Positions 1-25,174 of a stretch of DNA of 25,174 bases are shown piece by piece. Within the stretch, counting starts at the first letter, position 1. Each line of letters starts with the position of its first letter. The stretch is from a virus, in the IMG/VR virus record IMGVR_UViG_3300031773_000036, positions 1-25,174 of that record. One strand, 5' to 3'. The notes beneath the pieces were generated by a model. That model had not been told where the DNA came from, did not search any database, and was given only the letters and a program-made list of their open reading frames with translations. A program made the translations under genes and the position numbers.

Positions 1-73
1 ACGAGATACACGCTCACGGATTCAATACTCACGGAGCAAGAAAGGGAAGAGATTCAGTCAAGAATGGAATCCA
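1..73. repeat. Terminal direct repeat, left copy
   Basis: These 73 bases are identical to the last 73 bases of the window. The reading frame of the large terminase passes through the repeat and stays open when the right end is joined to the left end, so the repeat marks a circular or circularly permuted molecule rather than two gene copies. It may be only the assembler's overlap and need not be the physical phage end. Confidence 0.95.
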
Positions 74-278
74 ATTCCTCCATTCGAGACCGCTTCTTGT
101 CACGGCTCGGAGTGTGAACCTTATCCGGGAGCTACGCAATTACAAATGGAAGGAAGACAAGAACGGCAAGCAACTGAATGAACCCGTCGACAACTTCAAC
201 CACGCCATCGATGCGATGCGGTACGCGATCACATTTAACCAAACGAACCCGAACTTCGGCTCTTATGCTATCGGATAG
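1..278 (+). CDS. terL: Terminase large subunit, C-terminal part (continues from 24225)
   Basis: This is the C-terminal end of the large terminase that starts at 24225 and runs off the right edge. Reading in frame from base 3 gives EIHAHGFNTHGARKGR onward to a TAG at 276-278. Joined across the 73-base overlap, the protein is 384 residues. The last third of such proteins is an RNase H-fold nuclease that cuts concatemeric DNA during packaging. The motif HAIDAMRYAI near the end matches the conserved Asp/Arg/Tyr-containing C-terminal motif of that nuclease. No stop interrupts the joined frame. An A-rich stretch and promoter follow directly. The identity is secure because ATPase and nuclease motifs are present in the other part. 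Confidence 0.93.
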   Translation, partial: EIHAHGFNTHGARKGRDSVKNGIQFLHSRPLLVTARSVNLIRELRNYKWKEDKNGKQLNEPVDNFNHAIDAMRYAITFNQTNPNFGSYAIG

Positions 279-310: not shown

Positions 311-340
311 TTGGATAACTAAAAGAATTGCGTATCTTTG
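311..340 (+). promoter_or_regulatory. Bacteroidota-type promoter P1
   Basis: A -33 TTG at 311-313 is separated by exactly 19 bases from TATCTTTG at 333-340, which matches the Bacteroidota -7 consensus TAnnTTTG. An A-rich tract (about 279-300) lies just upstream. The element matches 18816-18845 at 25 of 30 positions, including the shared blocks TTGGATAAC and TTGCGTATCTTT. It would drive the gene at 368. Confidence 0.85.
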
Positions 341-367
341 AGACATCAAACGAAACAAAAGGAAACA

Positions 368-634
368 ATGCAACTCACATCACACCCAACAACAGGCGAC
401 CAAGTTAAAGGCTACACTTTGCGCGGAAGCAGAAAAACAGTAAACAAGCGCAGAGGTTTTGTAAGCTTTGATTTGTTGTTAGAAGATGAAAACGGCACAC
501 GCCGCGTTGCTGCCTACTACCCGCGAAAAATGCAAGTTGGCAATTTCCGAACGGAAATACACTTTCACGGCAACAAGGAATATCCAGCAACTTGGAACGA
601 CCAAGATTTGAACACAACAAAAACTGTTCGATAA
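368..634 (+). CDS. Small protein of unknown function in promoter unit 1
   Basis: This encodes an 88-residue basic, hydrophilic protein that I do not recognise. It starts MQLTSHPTTGD and has alternating polar and hydrophobic stretches (GFVSFDLLLEDENG) suggesting a small beta-rich fold; no membrane segment or cysteines are seen. The ATG at 368 is preferred over an upstream in-frame TTG at 338, because that TTG lies inside the -7 promoter box. The leader between box and ATG is A-rich with no real Shine-Dalgarno, as is usual in Bacteroidota. The gene has its own promoter and a strong terminator, so it is probably transcribed alone. Leucine codons are mostly TTG/TTA (1 of 6 is CTC), unlike the CTC-rich terminase genes, hinting at a different history. 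A host-takeover or regulatory role is only a guess. Confidence 0.75.
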   Translation: MQLTSHPTTGDQVKGYTLRGSRKTVNKRRGFVSFDLLLEDENGTRRVAAYYPRKMQVGNFRTEIHFHGNKEYPATWNDQDLNTTKTVR

Positions 635-638
635 TGCA

Positions 639-662
639 AGCCCCTCACGGGGCTTTTTTTTT
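639..662 (+). terminator. Rho-independent terminator
   Basis: A GC-rich stem GCCCC (640-644) and GGGGC (649-653) with loop TCAC is followed by nine T residues (654-662). It lies five bases after the stop of the 368-634 gene and separates it from the structural genes. Confidence 0.93.
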
Positions 663-710: not shown

Positions 711-1367
711 ATGATGGAACTCAAACTCCCGCACCGATGGTCGGATCTCTCACTCGGAGAACTCCAAGTCATGATGACAACAGAGAACCCCCTGGAGAAG
801 ATATCCATCTGCTCGGGGCAATCGGTAGAGAAGCTCCGTTCGATGCCTCAGAAGCTCATAGAAGCCGCCTCAGCGCATCTCGACAATCTACTCACCCAAG
901 AGACCGCACGACATGAGAAGGTCGTTGAAATCGACGGAAAACGATTCGGCTTCATTCCGAATTGGGATGAGTTCACAGCGGGCGAATGGATCGACATGGA
1001 AAACCACCTCGAGGACTTCTGGAAGAACGCCCACAAAATTACCGCTCTTCTCTATCGGGAAGTGACTTACGAACTCGGGGATAAATACGAGGTCAAGAAG
1101 TACACCGCCAAAGAAGATGCAAGCATATTCGAAGAGATGGGAGCGGACTTGATATCGGGCATGCTGCTTTTTTTTTGGACTTCCAGAAATCAACTGCTTC
1201 ACGATATGCAGTTCTCTTTACTGGAGGTGGCGGACAAAGCGATCCAGTCGGTGAAAAATGGGGATGGTATCACCTCCTCTACGCCCTCTCCGGAGAAGAC
1301 ATCCTCAAGATGGACTCGATTACGGAACTCCCTGTTCAAGTCGTATTCCAGCACCTCAGCTATTTAA
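711..1367 (+). CDS. Tail assembly chaperone, zero-frame product
   Basis: This 218-residue product resembles the tail assembly chaperones of Bacteroidota siphoviruses, which keep the tape measure soluble while the tail tube forms. The N-terminus (LKLPHRWSDLSLGELQ) has the usual 'W-SD-LGE-Q' start, and the middle is acidic and helical (FIPNWDEFTAGEWIDMENHLEDF). The reading frame looks natural up to about residue 183 (QSVKN) and then turns into Ser/Thr/Arg-rich sequence to the stop at 1367. The natural continuation (WGWYHLLYALSGED) is in the -1 frame. That is the pattern of a recoded G/GT chaperone pair, or of one missing base in the assembly. ATG at 711 is followed by a second ATG at 714; either could start. 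It follows terminator 639-662, so its promoter is not obvious. Confidence 0.7.
   Translation: MMELKLPHRWSDLSLGELQVMMTTENPLEKISICSGQSVEKLRSMPQKLIEAASAHLDNLLTQETARHEKVVEIDGKRFGFIPNWDEFTAGEWIDMENHLEDFWKNAHKITALLYREVTYELGDKYEVKKYTAKEDASIFEEMGADLISGMLLFFWTSRNQLLHDMQFSLLEVADKAIQSVKNGDGITSSTPSPEKTSSRWTRLRNSLFKSYSSTSAI
1168..1259 (+). other. Candidate -1 recoding window in the tail chaperone gene
   Basis: Two homopolymers could allow a -1 shift: nine T at 1168-1176 (read CTT TTT TTT TGG in frame 0) and five A at 1254-1258 (read GTG AAA AAT GGG). Frame 0 still looks coding between them, so the second site fits better; shifting there gives ..QSVKN/K-WGWYHLL... The A5 site is not a perfect X XXY YYZ heptamer, so a one-base assembly error remains possible. 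Confidence 0.5.
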
Positions 1368-18695: not shown

Positions 18696-18749
18696 TATAT
18701 TCGGGTTCTGTTTTGTTAGGGTATAGACACCCATTGTTACGTTTGTAGG

Positions 18750-18783
18750 GAGGGAGGCTCAACGGGGCTTCCCTCTTTTTTTT
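18750..18783 (+). terminator. Strong terminator closing the late genes
   Basis: Stem 18750-18760 (GAGGGAGGCTC) pairs with 18765-18775 (GGGCTTCCCTC, with G-U pairs) around loop AACG, followed by eight T (18776-18783). It separates the late region from the second small promoter unit. Confidence 0.93.
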
Positions 18784-18815
18784 GCGTAAAAAAGAAAAAT
18801 AATTTGTTTTCATGC

Positions 18816-18845
18816 TTGGATAACGAAATAAGTTGCGTATCTTTA
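18816..18845 (+). promoter_or_regulatory. Bacteroidota-type promoter P2, twin of P1
   Basis: TTG at 18816-18818 is 19 bases from TATCTTTA at 18838-18845. It shares 25 of 30 positions with 311-340, again with an A-rich upstream stretch containing GTTTT, and is therefore likely read by the same polymerase form or bound by the same regulator. Confidence 0.82.
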
Positions 18846-18873
18846 CACCATGACAAACGCAAACAACACTACC

Positions 18874-19062
18874 ATGACAAACTTAGAAACAGCAAAACAG
18901 GAGCTTAGCAATGTAAACATGACCGCAATAATTGAAGCGGCTTGCAAAAAATTCACAGACGCTTGTTATGATGAAGGTTTAACAGTTGAGAAAACAAAGC
19001 GCATGATGTACAGCGCAGAAGGTTTGGATATTATCGCAAAGCTGGCAGCAAAAGCAATCTAA
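18874..19062 (+). CDS. Small protein of unknown function in promoter unit 2
   Basis: A 62-residue mostly helical protein (MTNLETAKQELSNVNMTAII, then EGLDIIAKLAAKAI) with two cysteines (AACKKFTDAC); not recognised. The start at 18874 is chosen because it leaves the same leader length after the -7 box (28 bases) as in the P1 unit (27). An in-frame ATG at 18850 lies only four bases after the box and would demand a leaderless message. Both ATGs sit in the same 12-base repeat ACCATGACAAAC (18847 and 18871). The gene is transcribed from its own promoter and followed by a short hairpin. Its codons are A-rich like the gene at 368, unlike the CTC-rich terminase genes. Confidence 0.72.
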   Translation: MTNLETAKQELSNVNMTAIIEAACKKFTDACYDEGLTVEKTKRMMYSAEGLDIIAKLAAKAI

Positions 19063-19091
19063 TTGAAACGCCCTTCGGGGCTTTATCTTTC
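19063..19091 (+). promoter_or_regulatory. Possible third promoter overlapping a hairpin
   Basis: TTG at 19063-19065 and TATCTTTC at 19084-19091 are 18 bases apart, close to the Bacteroidota pattern, with the ATG of the next gene four bases on. The spacer contains the hairpin 19070-19081. The match may simply be the T-rich tail of that hairpin. Confidence 0.3.
19070..19090 (+). terminator. Short terminator-like hairpin
   Basis: GCCC (19070-19073), the stable loop TTCG and GGGC (19078-19081) are followed by TTTATCTTT. The stem is only four pairs and the T-run is interrupted, so termination is probably partial and the downstream early genes may be read through. Confidence 0.55.
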
Positions 19092-21458: not shown

Positions 21459-21939
21459 ACCCACCAACGAAGAAGCCTGGGCGGGTACAAACATCCTCAC
21501 GAGCCTCAGACACCATCCCGAAGAGACTCGGGCGGCAGTCGTGACGATGATCAATAAGACGGTGGAATTCATCGACGCAAAGAAGACCCTTCACTCATTC
21601 GAGGACTTGGCACTTTGTGCAGAGACCATCTTCGAGGTGTTCCCCGTTTTGAAACTGGAAGAACTTCGCTTAATTTGCGAGAGGATGAAACAAGGATATT
21701 ACGGCAACTTCTTCGAGCGACTCAAGATTCAGGAGTTTCGCGATTGCATTATCAAGCATGAAGAAGAACGAGCGTCCATTCTTGAGCAACAACACAAAAC
21801 GATAAGTCGAGGAGCGCAAGACCCCACGAACGTCCCTGAGTACGATCCCGAACAAGCCAAGCTGGAATGGCGCATGAAGAACAATCCCTTCTTGATACCC
21901 GGAAAGAATGACAGTAGCAAAGGCGAAGGCGAAGCTTGA
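21373..21939 (+). CDS. Conserved phage replication-block protein, unknown function
   Basis: A 188-residue protein starting inside the previous gene (86-base overlap). Helical segments include TRAAVVTMINKTVEFIDAKK and ALCAETIFEVFPVLKLEELR, then the motif KQGYYGNFFERLKIQEF and a charged C-terminal tail. The 'LKLEE...KKGYYG.F..R' pattern recurs in uncharacterised proteins located next to helicase-loader genes in Bacteroidota phages. The placement beside the initiator suggests an accessory role in replication, but no catalytic residues are evident. Its stop overlaps the NinG start by 32 bases. Confidence 0.6.
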   Translation: MNLQRTKQELQSNQAKTSLQHISSTGIYKPTNEEAWAGTNILTSLRHHPEETRAAVVTMINKTVEFIDAKKTLHSFEDLALCAETIFEVFPVLKLEELRLICERMKQGYYGNFFERLKIQEFRDCIIKHEEERASILEQQHKTISRGAQDPTNVPEYDPEQAKLEWRMKNNPFLIPGKNDSSKGEGEA

Positions 21940-22309
21940 CAAGATATTCTCCCAATTCATCCGGCTGCGTGCGGTCAACGATGAAGGGTGGGGAGAGTGT
22001 TTTACTTGCGGACGCTTGCGCCATTACAAAAGCGCAGACGCTGGTCATTTCATGGTGCGGCAAAAGATGCCCACCCGGTTTGATATCATGAACGTACAAT
22101 TCCAGTGTAAAAAATGCAACGGATTTGAAGGGGGTGCACAATACGAATTCGCTTTGAAGTTGGATGAGGTATACGGAGAAGGGACAGCGGATCGCCTTGT
22201 TCGCTTGAGCAACGAAACGAAGCGATTCAGCGTTCACGAATTGGAAGCACTTTGCAAAATATACAAGAAGAAAGTCGATGAACTCAGGAAGTCGAAAGGG
22301 TTGGAATAG
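21908..22309 (+). CDS. ninG: NinG-like (Rap) recombination nuclease
   Basis: The 133-residue protein has the NinG signature: C31-F-T-C34, DAGHFMVRQKMPTRFD with His47, NVQFQCKKCN with C67 and C70, and the following basic helices. In lambda, NinG (Rap) is an endonuclease acting on Holliday-junction-like branched DNA in phage recombination. Here it lies between the replication genes and the sigma-like gene. All zinc-type cysteines are present and the length is shorter than lambda NinG, as in many Bacteroidota phage versions. It overlaps both neighbours by 32 bases. Confidence 0.82.
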   Translation: MTVAKAKAKLDKIFSQFIRLRAVNDEGWGECFTCGRLRHYKSADAGHFMVRQKMPTRFDIMNVQFQCKKCNGFEGGAQYEFALKLDEVYGEGTADRLVRLSNETKRFSVHELEALCKIYKKKVDELRKSKGLE

Positions 22310-22763
22310 CTTCTTAACGAAGCACTATTCAAAACTTGTTCGCATCGCTCGACGATGGACGGACAGCCCTTCCGACCTTGTACATCACACCTATCTTCGA
22401 TGCATCGACAAACGCTTCCCCGATGGGGATAACGAGACCGCTCTCGGGTACTTTGTGAAAGCGATGTATAACGAAGCCACGAGAGGAAAATTCAAAGAGA
22501 TATATCACGTAACAGATGCCGACCCCAAAGAACAAGCCTTCGAAAACGATTGGACAAAAGCAATCCAACGAGAACAAATGCAACTCATCCTTGACCGCCT
22601 CTCCTGGTTTGATCGAACCATCTTCTCTCTATACCTGCAAGGGTGGAACATGGCTGACGTATCTCGACGGTCTAGCATTGGAGAATCGACCCTTTATCGC
22701 TCACTACACATCACCCGAAAAATCCTGAAAGATGTTCTTCGTAACGGCTCAAAAGAGGACTGA
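22278..22763 (+). CDS. Sigma-70-like RNA polymerase sigma factor
   Basis: The 161-residue protein resembles the small sigma factors of Bacteroidota phages. Residues about 15-70 fit region 2 (HYSKLVRIARRWTD, PSDLVHHTYLRCI, and a GYFVKAMYNEATRG end). Residues about 100-155 fit region 4 with a helix-turn-helix (FSLYLQGWNMADVSRRSSIG, then ESTLYRSLHITRKIL). Factors of this kind redirect host polymerase, here perhaps to late or duplicated promoters. The ATG at 22278 overlaps NinG by 32 bases, and its own end overlaps the next gene by 32. Sequence similarity to region 2 is loose, so a purely DNA-binding role is an alternative. Confidence 0.68.
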   Translation: MNSGSRKGWNSFLTKHYSKLVRIARRWTDSPSDLVHHTYLRCIDKRFPDGDNETALGYFVKAMYNEATRGKFKEIYHVTDADPKEQAFENDWTKAIQREQMQLILDRLSWFDRTIFSLYLQGWNMADVSRRSSIGESTLYRSLHITRKILKDVLRNGSKED

Positions 22764-23533: not shown

Positions 23534-23888
23534 AGAGGAGAGGTTCGACAAGCTCGTTCAATCCATCCGAGAGTTCCCCGAGATGCTCCAAGCACGACCC
23601 ATCGTTGTCAACCCCGACATGGTTATAATCGGAGGGAACATGAGATTCAAAGCGTGCAAAGCAGCGGGACTCAAAGAGGCTCCCGTCTATGTCGCTACAT
23701 GGGGCGAATTGAAAGACCGAGAGTTCACGATAAAGGATAACACCAACGCAGGAGAACACGATATGGATATCCTCGCGAACGAATGGGATGCAACCGAACT
23801 CAATGACTGGATGCTCAACGTATGGGATCCACAAGAAGAACCTGAAGAGAAAGAAGAGAAAGTGAAATGCGAATTATGCGGTAAGTAA
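23484..23888 (+). CDS. ParB-like nuclease-domain protein
   Basis: The 134-residue protein resembles the ParB/Srx-fold domain: KLSAIRENPRNPR at the start, FDKLVQSIREFPEMLQARPI, IIGGNMRFKACKAAG (50-62) and the later REFTIKDNTNAGEHD. In many Bacteroidota phages this domain precedes or is fused to a DNA methyltransferase; none is seen here. Residues past 110 are acidic (EEPEEKEEK) and end with a CxxC pair (C129, C132), which may be a residual zinc knuckle. ATG 23484 is chosen because the longer start at 23442 lacks the typical beginning. It is coupled to the small terminase gene by TAATG. It could act in DNA processing for packaging, but the nuclease activity is unproven. Confidence 0.7.
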   Translation: MKLSAIRENPRNPRTIKEERFDKLVQSIREFPEMLQARPIVVNPDMVIIGGNMRFKACKAAGLKEAPVYVATWGELKDREFTIKDNTNAGEHDMDILANEWDATELNDWMLNVWDPQEEPEEKEEKVKCELCGK

Positions 23889-24232
23889 TGGAAGCACTTA
23901 AGACCAACACATCCAACACTAAAAAAGAAGCGATGCTCGAAGCCCTCGAGAAGTCGCTCGGTATTGTATCGACAGCCGCGAAGATGGTTGGGATTGATCG
24001 CTCGACTCATTACGCATGGCTAAAAGCAGACGAGGAATATAAGAGCGCGGTTCAATCCATTCAAGACAGCGTTCTCGACTTTGCAGAATCGCACCTCTAC
24101 AAACTCGTAAAGGAAGGCAACCCAGCAGCGACGATATTCTTCTTGAAGACCAAAGGCAAGAAGCGCGGATATATCGAACGGCAAGAGATAGAGGTCACCG
24201 AGAAGAAGCCGCTCTCATGGCTCGATGAGTAA
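23888..24232 (+). CDS. terS: Terminase small subunit
   Basis: The 114-residue protein lies directly before the large terminase and overlaps its start by eight bases. Residues about 24-46 are a helix-turn-helix (LGIVSTAAKMVGIDRSTHYA, then WLK), the usual DNA-binding part of small terminases. The middle is a helix hairpin (VLDFAESHLYKLVKEGNPAA) and IFFLKTKGKKRGY is a typical end motif. It recognises the packaging site and hands DNA to the large subunit. It is short for the family but complete. Confidence 0.85.
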   Translation: MEALKTNTSNTKKEAMLEALEKSLGIVSTAAKMVGIDRSTHYAWLKADEEYKSAVQSIQDSVLDFAESHLYKLVKEGNPAATIFFLKTKGKKRGYIERQEIEVTEKKPLSWLDE

Positions 24233-25174
24233 ACTCCCCGCGACATATTACCACGTCAAAGAATGCAAGTCGAAGATACAAGTTCACCAAGGCGGGACAC
24301 GATCCGGAAAGACGTACTCCATCCTCACGGCACTCATTGAGCTTTGCCACAAGAACTCGGGACTCGTTATCACGATATGCCGAAAGACATTCCCCGCACT
24401 TCGTGCCACCGCAATGAGGGACTTCTTCGAGATACTCGAAAACGAGGAGGCATATAACGTCGAGCTTCACAACAAGAGCGAAGGCACATACCAACTATGG
24501 GGAAACCTCGTAGAGTTTATATCATTATCAGAACCGCAGAAGGTCAGAGGACGCAAGAGAGACGTTCTATTCATCAACGAAGCCAACGAGATAAACCTTG
24601 AAGATTGGCGACAACTCCTCCTCAGAACAACGGGGAGAGTATTAATCGATTACAACCCCTCAGACGAATTCCATTGGATATATGAAGAAGTCATCCCACG
24701 AGAAGACGCAGAGTTCTTCCGCACCACGTACAAAGACAACCCGTTCCTCCCTGAAAGTGTGGTCATGGAGATTGAGCGGTTTAAAACAGCAGACGAGAAC
24801 TTTTGGAAAGTATACGGTCTCGGAGAACGAGGCACCGCACAAAGCACCATCTTCACCCACTGGAAAGAAATAAATCAAATACCAAATGAATACAAGCTCC
24901 TCAACATCGGACTCGACTTCGGTTATACAAACGACCCAACCGCAATCGTCCGAGTCTTCACAGACGGTGATGGATTCGCAGTCGACGAACTCTGCTACGC
25001 GACAAGACTTACGAATTCAGATATTGCAAAAGTGCTCCGAGATAACGAAGTCAATAGATCGGATGTTGTTATCTGTGACTCCGCTGAGCCAAAGAGCATC
25101 GACGAGATACACGCTCACGGATTCAATACTCACGGAGCAAGAAAGGGAAGAGATTCAGTCAAGAATGGAATCCA
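24225..25174 (+). CDS. terL: Terminase large subunit, N-terminal part (continues at 1)
   Basis: This begins at ATG 24225, inside the small subunit stop, and remains open to the window end; joined to 1-278 it gives 384 residues. Walker A is QGGTRSGKT (22-30). The Walker B region is VLFINEAN (114-121), with Asn118-Glu119 in place of the usual Asp-Glu, as in related short phage terminases. The coupling motif is IDYNPSDEFHW (141-151). The nuclease begins at GLDFGYTNDPTA (Asp231) and continues with VVICDSAEPKSI (Asp285). It powers genome packaging into the prohead and cuts DNA. The length is short for a terminase large subunit but complete in motifs. Confidence 0.95.
   Translation, partial: MSKLPATYYHVKECKSKIQVHQGGTRSGKTYSILTALIELCHKNSGLVITICRKTFPALRATAMRDFFEILENEEAYNVELHNKSEGTYQLWGNLVEFISLSEPQKVRGRKRDVLFINEANEINLEDWRQLLLRTTGRVLIDYNPSDEFHWIYEEVIPREDAEFFRTTYKDNPFLPESVVMEIERFKTADENFWKVYGLGERGTAQSTIFTHWKEINQIPNEYKLLNIGLDFGYTNDPTAIVRVFTDGDGFAVDELCYATRLTNSDIAKVLRDNEVNRSDVVICDSAEPKSIDEIHAHGFNTHGARKGRDSVKNGI
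25102..25174. repeat. Terminal direct repeat, right copy
   Basis: These bases are identical to 1-73. The terminase reading frame crosses the join without change, so the two ends overlap in a circular map of 25,101 bases. Confidence 0.95.

Follow-up and report, generated by a model that had tools for sequence, protein, structure and literature searches.

Two small transcription units in a phage genome

The window analyzed here, by which we mean the whole stretch of 25,174 nt, is a virus record that starts and ends with a 73-nt direct terminal repeat (positions 1-73 and 25102-25174) and therefore looks complete, with a genome size of ~25.1 kb. The TerL gene is split over the record ends and was rejoined via this repeat. 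We analyzed two units in this genome, each consisting of a promoter, a 5′ leader, one small ORF, and a terminator, an arrangement that we refer to as a cassette. The units and the features that bear on them are as follows.

1-278, plus strand: C-terminal part of TerL (N-terminal part at 24225-25172), forming the upstream flank of site I.
311-340, plus strand: promoter P1, with TTG (311-313), 19 nt, and the box TATCTTTG (333-340); 25 of 30 bases shared with P2; fits TTTG/TAnnTTTG.
341-367, plus strand: leader type 1, with a GAGACATCAAACGAAACAAA core starting at base 340; unstructured, with no fold.
368-634, plus strand: cargo gene A, an 88-aa orphan of cargo family F3, with relatives at three different sites.
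638-662, plus strand: intrinsic terminator of cassette 1, a strong hairpin with T9 (-12.2 kcal/mol).
711-1367, plus strand: conserved 218-aa protein (PHROG 32199) that flanks site I downstream and served as a query in sampling filled and empty sites.
18747-18784, plus strand: strong resident terminator upstream of cassette 2.
18816-18845, plus strand: promoter P2, with TTG, 19 nt, and the box TATCTTTA; 25 of 30 bases shared with P1.
18846-18873, plus strand: leader type 2, with an in-frame upstream ATG at 18850.
18874-19062, plus strand: cargo gene B, 62 aa, of cargo family F1, with nine relatives at four sites.
19068-19090, plus strand: terminator-like hairpin of cassette 2, weaker (-7.7 kcal/mol); the same hairpin is found in leader-2 cassettes.
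21908-22309, plus strand: NinG/Rap-like Holliday-junction nuclease (Pfam 6.5e-15, PHROG 2.7e-30), a candidate exchange helper.
22278-22763: sigma-like protein (PHROG 1740 at 1.7e-6, weak Pfam ECF sigma match).
24225-24232, plus strand: empty site III, where a 114-aa gene (23888-24232) overlaps TerL; in the relative L020, a gene-B cassette lies between these two genes.

We compared the two control regions with each other and with the rest of the window. P1 and P2 lie on the same strand and agree at 25 of 30 bases, with TTGGATAAC and TTGCGTATCTTT being exact in both and the DNA 5′ of each being A-rich. The next best match to P1 within the window reaches 19 of 30, and almost no pair of 30-mers outside the 73-nt terminal repeat attains 25. 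Each promoter is followed by a leader (27 and 28 nt, respectively), by one small orphan gene (88 and 62 aa), and by a hairpin. Unit 1 is placed after TerL, and unit 2 is found after an M15 peptidase, a metallophosphoesterase, and a weakly holin-like gene. The proteins encoded by genes A and B are unrelated, and it is the control element that the units share. With regard to the promoter match, the leaders, the small genes, and the hairpins, our analysis agrees with a preliminary description of the locus, which had also taken the units to be free-standing. Its term "duplicated" alone misleads: the two units were placed independently of each other and belong to a family present in many phages.

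Related cassettes occur in two phage lineages

In related phages, both the element and the small genes are conserved, as the earlier reading of the units required. The sequence TATCTTTGAGACATCAAACGAAACAAA, which covers the box and 20 nt of leader 1, is found exactly in 42 other IMG/VR stretches, and the leader-2 string is found in 19; the genes behind these copies are mostly unrelated small ORFs. By pooling leader-pattern matches with flank-based sampling, we obtained 73 distinct cassettes from two phage lineages, located at approximately five sites (site V being a group of related places). There are one to three cassettes per contig, and the window has two. Their cargo belongs to 41 unrelated families of 46-109 aa, 12 of which occur at more than one site. 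The leader-1 23-mer, searched with one free base, had no match in 84,980 species genomes, the P1 region matched nothing in plasmids, and the proteins of genes A and B were absent from 50,697 phage records. Several leaders and promoters depart from the core types. Most of the contigs are metagenome assembly fragments, and some junctions could be artefacts, yet the junction types recur in many samples. In L136, L138, L144, and L148, the site-I cassette has a quite different leader (TTCTTTGACGTATAGGGC...), the box still being TATCTTTG.

Among 16 large contigs tested, seven contain the window TerL, and five of those seven also contain its portal. The other nine (five of them 22-24 kb in length) have neither the window TerL nor its portal, and they carry the same box and leader types. 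To share cargo, the two lineages would have to meet in the same cells. One record, IMGVR_UViG_3300048115_000173 (L006, L071, L106; 40,311 nt), combines lineage-A TerL and portal with a second NinG and a RecT-like match typical of lineage B, and is possibly a chimeric assembly or a recombinant.

Cassette sites are found filled and empty

We used flanking proteins as queries to avoid picking filled cases alone. At site I, between TerL and the 218-aa protein, 36 of 76 cases were filled, including the window, and 40 were empty, with five short gaps containing chance 25-aa ORFs counted as empty. Site II, located in the second lineage between a gene read as major capsid and a head-tail connector, was filled in 16 of 72 cases and empty in 56. 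In its empty form, a resident terminator is followed by GTCCGTATTTTAGCGAC. In its filled form, the resident terminator with its T-tract is followed by a promoter, a leader, an ORF, and a second terminator, after which the same downstream DNA resumes. The cassette is thus a self-contained and insulated transcription unit that has been placed after a terminator already present. On sequence evidence, then, these sites behave as sockets that can be empty, that hold unrelated cargo in different phages, and that share the same cargo with other sockets and across lineages.

Promoters and leaders

In bacteria of the phylum Bacteroidota, promoters of the primary sigma factor contain TTTG near position -33 and TAnnTTTG at -7 (PMC7366714). 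P1 fits this consensus fully, and P2 differs in ending with an A. In all 73 cassettes, a TTG precedes the -7 box by 19, 20, or 21 nt (28, 6, and 39 cases, respectively); the box is TATCTTTG in 46 cassettes and TATCTTTA in 17. Host RNA polymerase should thus be able to read the cassettes at once on entry, judging from these motifs. A Bacteroidota host is also indicated by the window portal, which is 36% identical to the portal of Nonlabens phage P12024. Neither the leader-1 pattern nor relatives of the 218-aa flank protein were present in the genome contigs scanned for a host, and the host is therefore deduced from promoter type and portal similarity only.

In type-2 leaders, an ATG is located roughly where transcription should start, and MTNANNTT is added to some cargo. 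Some of the mRNAs may consequently be nearly leaderless. For gene B, an alternative reading from the ATG at 18850 would yield a possible 70-aa protein; the start that gives 62 aa is supported by relatives, being retained in the leader-1 copy in L018. Leader 2 itself seems to provide both the start codon and a MTNANNTT-like N-terminal tag in L067, L223, L004, and further cassettes of this leader type.

Borders of the exchanged unit

We next compared pairs of cassettes by site and by cargo. Pairs at the same site with different cargo have an upstream identity of 0.64, compared with 0.52 when site labels are shuffled (maximum 0.54 in 200). Pairs at different sites with the same cargo have an upstream identity of 0.51, compared with 0.48 when cargo is shuffled. 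By these measures, promoter DNA goes with the site and not with the cargo. Nine pairs have closely similar cargo at different sites. Averaged over them, identity rises from 0.59-0.64 upstream to 0.90 in the box and 0.95 in the CDS; it is 0.82 between the stop codon and the T-tract and falls to 0.61 beyond, against a random baseline of 0.56. In an alignment of window gene B with a lineage-B copy in L012, near-identity extends from TTGCGTATCTTT as far as the terminator, and the sequences diverge outside it. In L223, a whole leader-2/terminator-2 unit is found nested inside a site-II promoter and terminator. The pair identities, the alignments, and the nesting in L223 together define the exchanged unit as beginning at the -7 box or leader and ending at the terminator. 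The hairpin core of the cassette-1 terminator recurs in cassettes at other sites.

Proposed mechanism of exchange and alternative explanations

It is likely that both units of the window belong to a family of mobile, transcriptionally insulated, moron-type cassettes, which are swapped by recombination in shared control sequences. Each cassette lies between conserved phage genes and has an unstructured, A/C-rich leader that belongs to one of a few recurring types. The cargo would be transcribed by host RNA polymerase independently of the surrounding late operon. When two phages are present in one cell, they would recombine via the short shared control sequences, with ~30 nt of box and leader serving as homology on the left and ~20-25 nt of hairpin and T-tract on the right, and the cargo would be swapped. 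NinG/Rap perhaps helps in this exchange, and the cargo may consist of accessory host- or rival-directed proteins maintained as an exchangeable pool. Recombination in the shared box-leader and hairpin segments would be the simplest account of the exchange. A NinG/Rap-like nuclease is encoded in most records of both lineages and in 10 of 16 cassette contigs, and in lambda, Rap strongly raises RecA-dependent exchange (PMC3945230). We found no match to a RecT or ERF annealing protein in the window, and lineage B yielded RecT-like matches that are sub-threshold. A 124-aa lineage-B protein that resembled a recombinase on visual inspection matched nothing in Pfam, PHROGs, or the PDB sequences and was set aside. 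Integrase-driven cassettes were rejected, as PF00589 is absent from the window and 13 related records; the same search detected it in 14 of 14 control genomes.

The box and leader could alternatively be a dedicated recombination or recognition sequence of a phage- or host-encoded enzyme, and not ordinary control DNA. This would be in line with a 20-nt leader that is exactly the same in many contigs and both lineages in spite of varying cargo and promoters, and with identity borders that fall at the box/leader. We nevertheless consider it unlikely, given that no integrase is found in the window or the 13 records, that variant leaders also stand behind the box, that the leader is without inverted-repeat structure, and that the 3′ borders fall in the terminator, which has its own function. 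It is conceivable, if doubtful, that box-leader and terminator form a dedicated, integrase-free exchange platform, with a leader selected for exchange itself and a common pool of very small effector genes. If so, separate lineages on the same Bacteroidota host would keep interchangeable sockets.

Another explanation is a phage regulon, in which the sigma-like protein, already considered as a possible reader of the element in the preliminary description, or another phage regulator recognizes the element, and the leader is kept for regulation rather than for exchange. Indeed, the sigma-like protein is encoded by the window and kept across its lineage, and box and leader are strongly conserved across sites. 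The protein is not needed, however, because the second lineage has the same elements without that gene: 10 of 16 cassette contigs, including lineage-B contigs of 22-24 kb, have no match to it, and the motif is of the host primary sigma type. Shared regulation moreover leaves the empty sites and the cargo swapping unexplained. A regulon in place of exchange is very unlikely in our view, although a regulon could coexist with exchange. Convergence on a generic Bacteroidota promoter and 5′ UTR, with no common descent, is the least credible explanation and would be extremely surprising. The -7 box and the -33 motif are typical of Bacteroidota, and A/C-rich leaders are expected in these organisms. 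Yet 27 nt are exactly identical in 42 other contigs, while a 23-mer of them occurs in 0 of 84,980 species genomes, and closely similar cargo and terminators at different sites demonstrate transfer. The exact leader and the cargo held in common already refute convergence for the most part.

Comparison with known systems

A moron is an extra gene that comes with a promoter and a terminator of its own and separates two genes that are neighbors in relatives; morons are usually described as single acquisitions. Our cassettes likewise place an extra gene between genes adjacent in relatives (40 of 76 cases at site I and 56 of 72 at site II being empty), and at the sequence level have their own promoter and terminator (the promoter motif is present in 73 of 73, and the gene B hairpin is weak). 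As in morons, their composition is off the phage core, if modestly: G+C is 44% in gene A, 39% in gene B, and 43% on average in the cargo, compared with 48% for the window. In contrast to morons, the control sequences are shared, and cargo rotates through them. The lysogenic expression of morons cannot apply in the usual way if the phages are virulent; no integrase was found. With integron cassettes, they have in common interchangeable small genes in a fixed frame and a 3′ hairpin, but there is no site-specific tyrosine integrase in the records tested, and each site holds one gene, without arrays, with a promoter from each socket directly upstream.

The PeSLs, or "mobile regulatory cassettes", of T4-type phages were reportedly described by Arbiol et al. 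in 2010 and Comeau et al. in 2014. In papers that cite this work (PMC4503421, PMC4177764), the T4-type PeSL is a composite promoter-terminator motif that lies between genes and mediates the shuffling of small orphan genes among related phages. Our cassettes similarly combine a promoter with a stem-loop, and their junctions are at the box/leader and the terminator. PeSLs as portrayed in these papers differ from the cassettes in several respects. The cassettes use a host-type Bacteroidota promoter (TTG-N19-21-TAnnTTTG) and PeSLs a T4 early promoter; they occur at one to three per contig in 25-kb phages, whereas PeSLs form dense arrays; their sockets lie within the late region and have a conserved leader; and their pool is common to two lineages between which no TerL or portal homology is detectable. 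Phage mosaicism by relaxed homologous recombination, which involves Rad52-like recombinases, Orf, and Rap, also provides for exchange at short or diverged homologies, and a Rap/NinG homologue is present here (PMC3945230). In the cassettes, however, the borders recur in the same control sequences, and no annealing protein was identified in the window. The T4-type PeSL is the nearest precedent, and the anatomy of the cassettes is also moron-like. In the literature searched, the coverage of which is incomplete, we found no description of such cassettes in Bacteroidota phages. They suggest, in concrete and testable terms, how phages acquire small orphan genes and pass them among each other: sockets can be recognized by a 27-nt string, their cargo can be listed across metagenomes, and the exchange could be reproduced in the laboratory.

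Cargo proteins and associated small ORFs

The dN/dS ratios of the cargo range from 0.05 to 0.33 for most families with enough changes and amount to 0.16 for gene A, which indicates that the cargo genes encode real proteins under purifying selection. Representatives of the 41 families returned no informative function from Pfam, PHROGs, NCBIfam, or PADLOC; the searches produced one TrmB-like HTH match and a few weak, untrusted ones. An NCBIfam match of a cargo protein at 0.002 was treated as chance. The host-takeover or late-switch role envisaged in the preliminary description is speculative. Gene A has no protein family match, and its AlphaFold model, calculated from three sequences, is mostly beta with a pLDDT of 67, has no PDB match at E <= 0.001, and does not lend itself to interpretation. 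As a group, the 41 families of this sample are candidates for micro-proteins with which Bacteroidota phages may act against the host or its defences, and they were picked out by genomic position and not by homology.

Approximately 17 cassettes at sites I, II, and IV (L023, L024, L031, L034, L043, and L051 among them) contain a constant micro-ORF of ~24 codons (M-x-NEPEWFQEVLDRTEQTESFLLS) between cargo and terminator, which abuts the terminator. Close copies of it differ mainly at synonymous positions. Counting this micro-ORF, the cassettes concerned hold one to two genes and not one. In L006:2626 and L025, the micro-ORF is fused in frame to the gene that follows (MNDNKQT...), as would be expected from loss of the terminator. 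In L012, L015, L060, and L068, a short acidic protein (MWREGYDYPADDEDEGRDYYEE...) is encoded 3′ of the terminator of the site V cassette.
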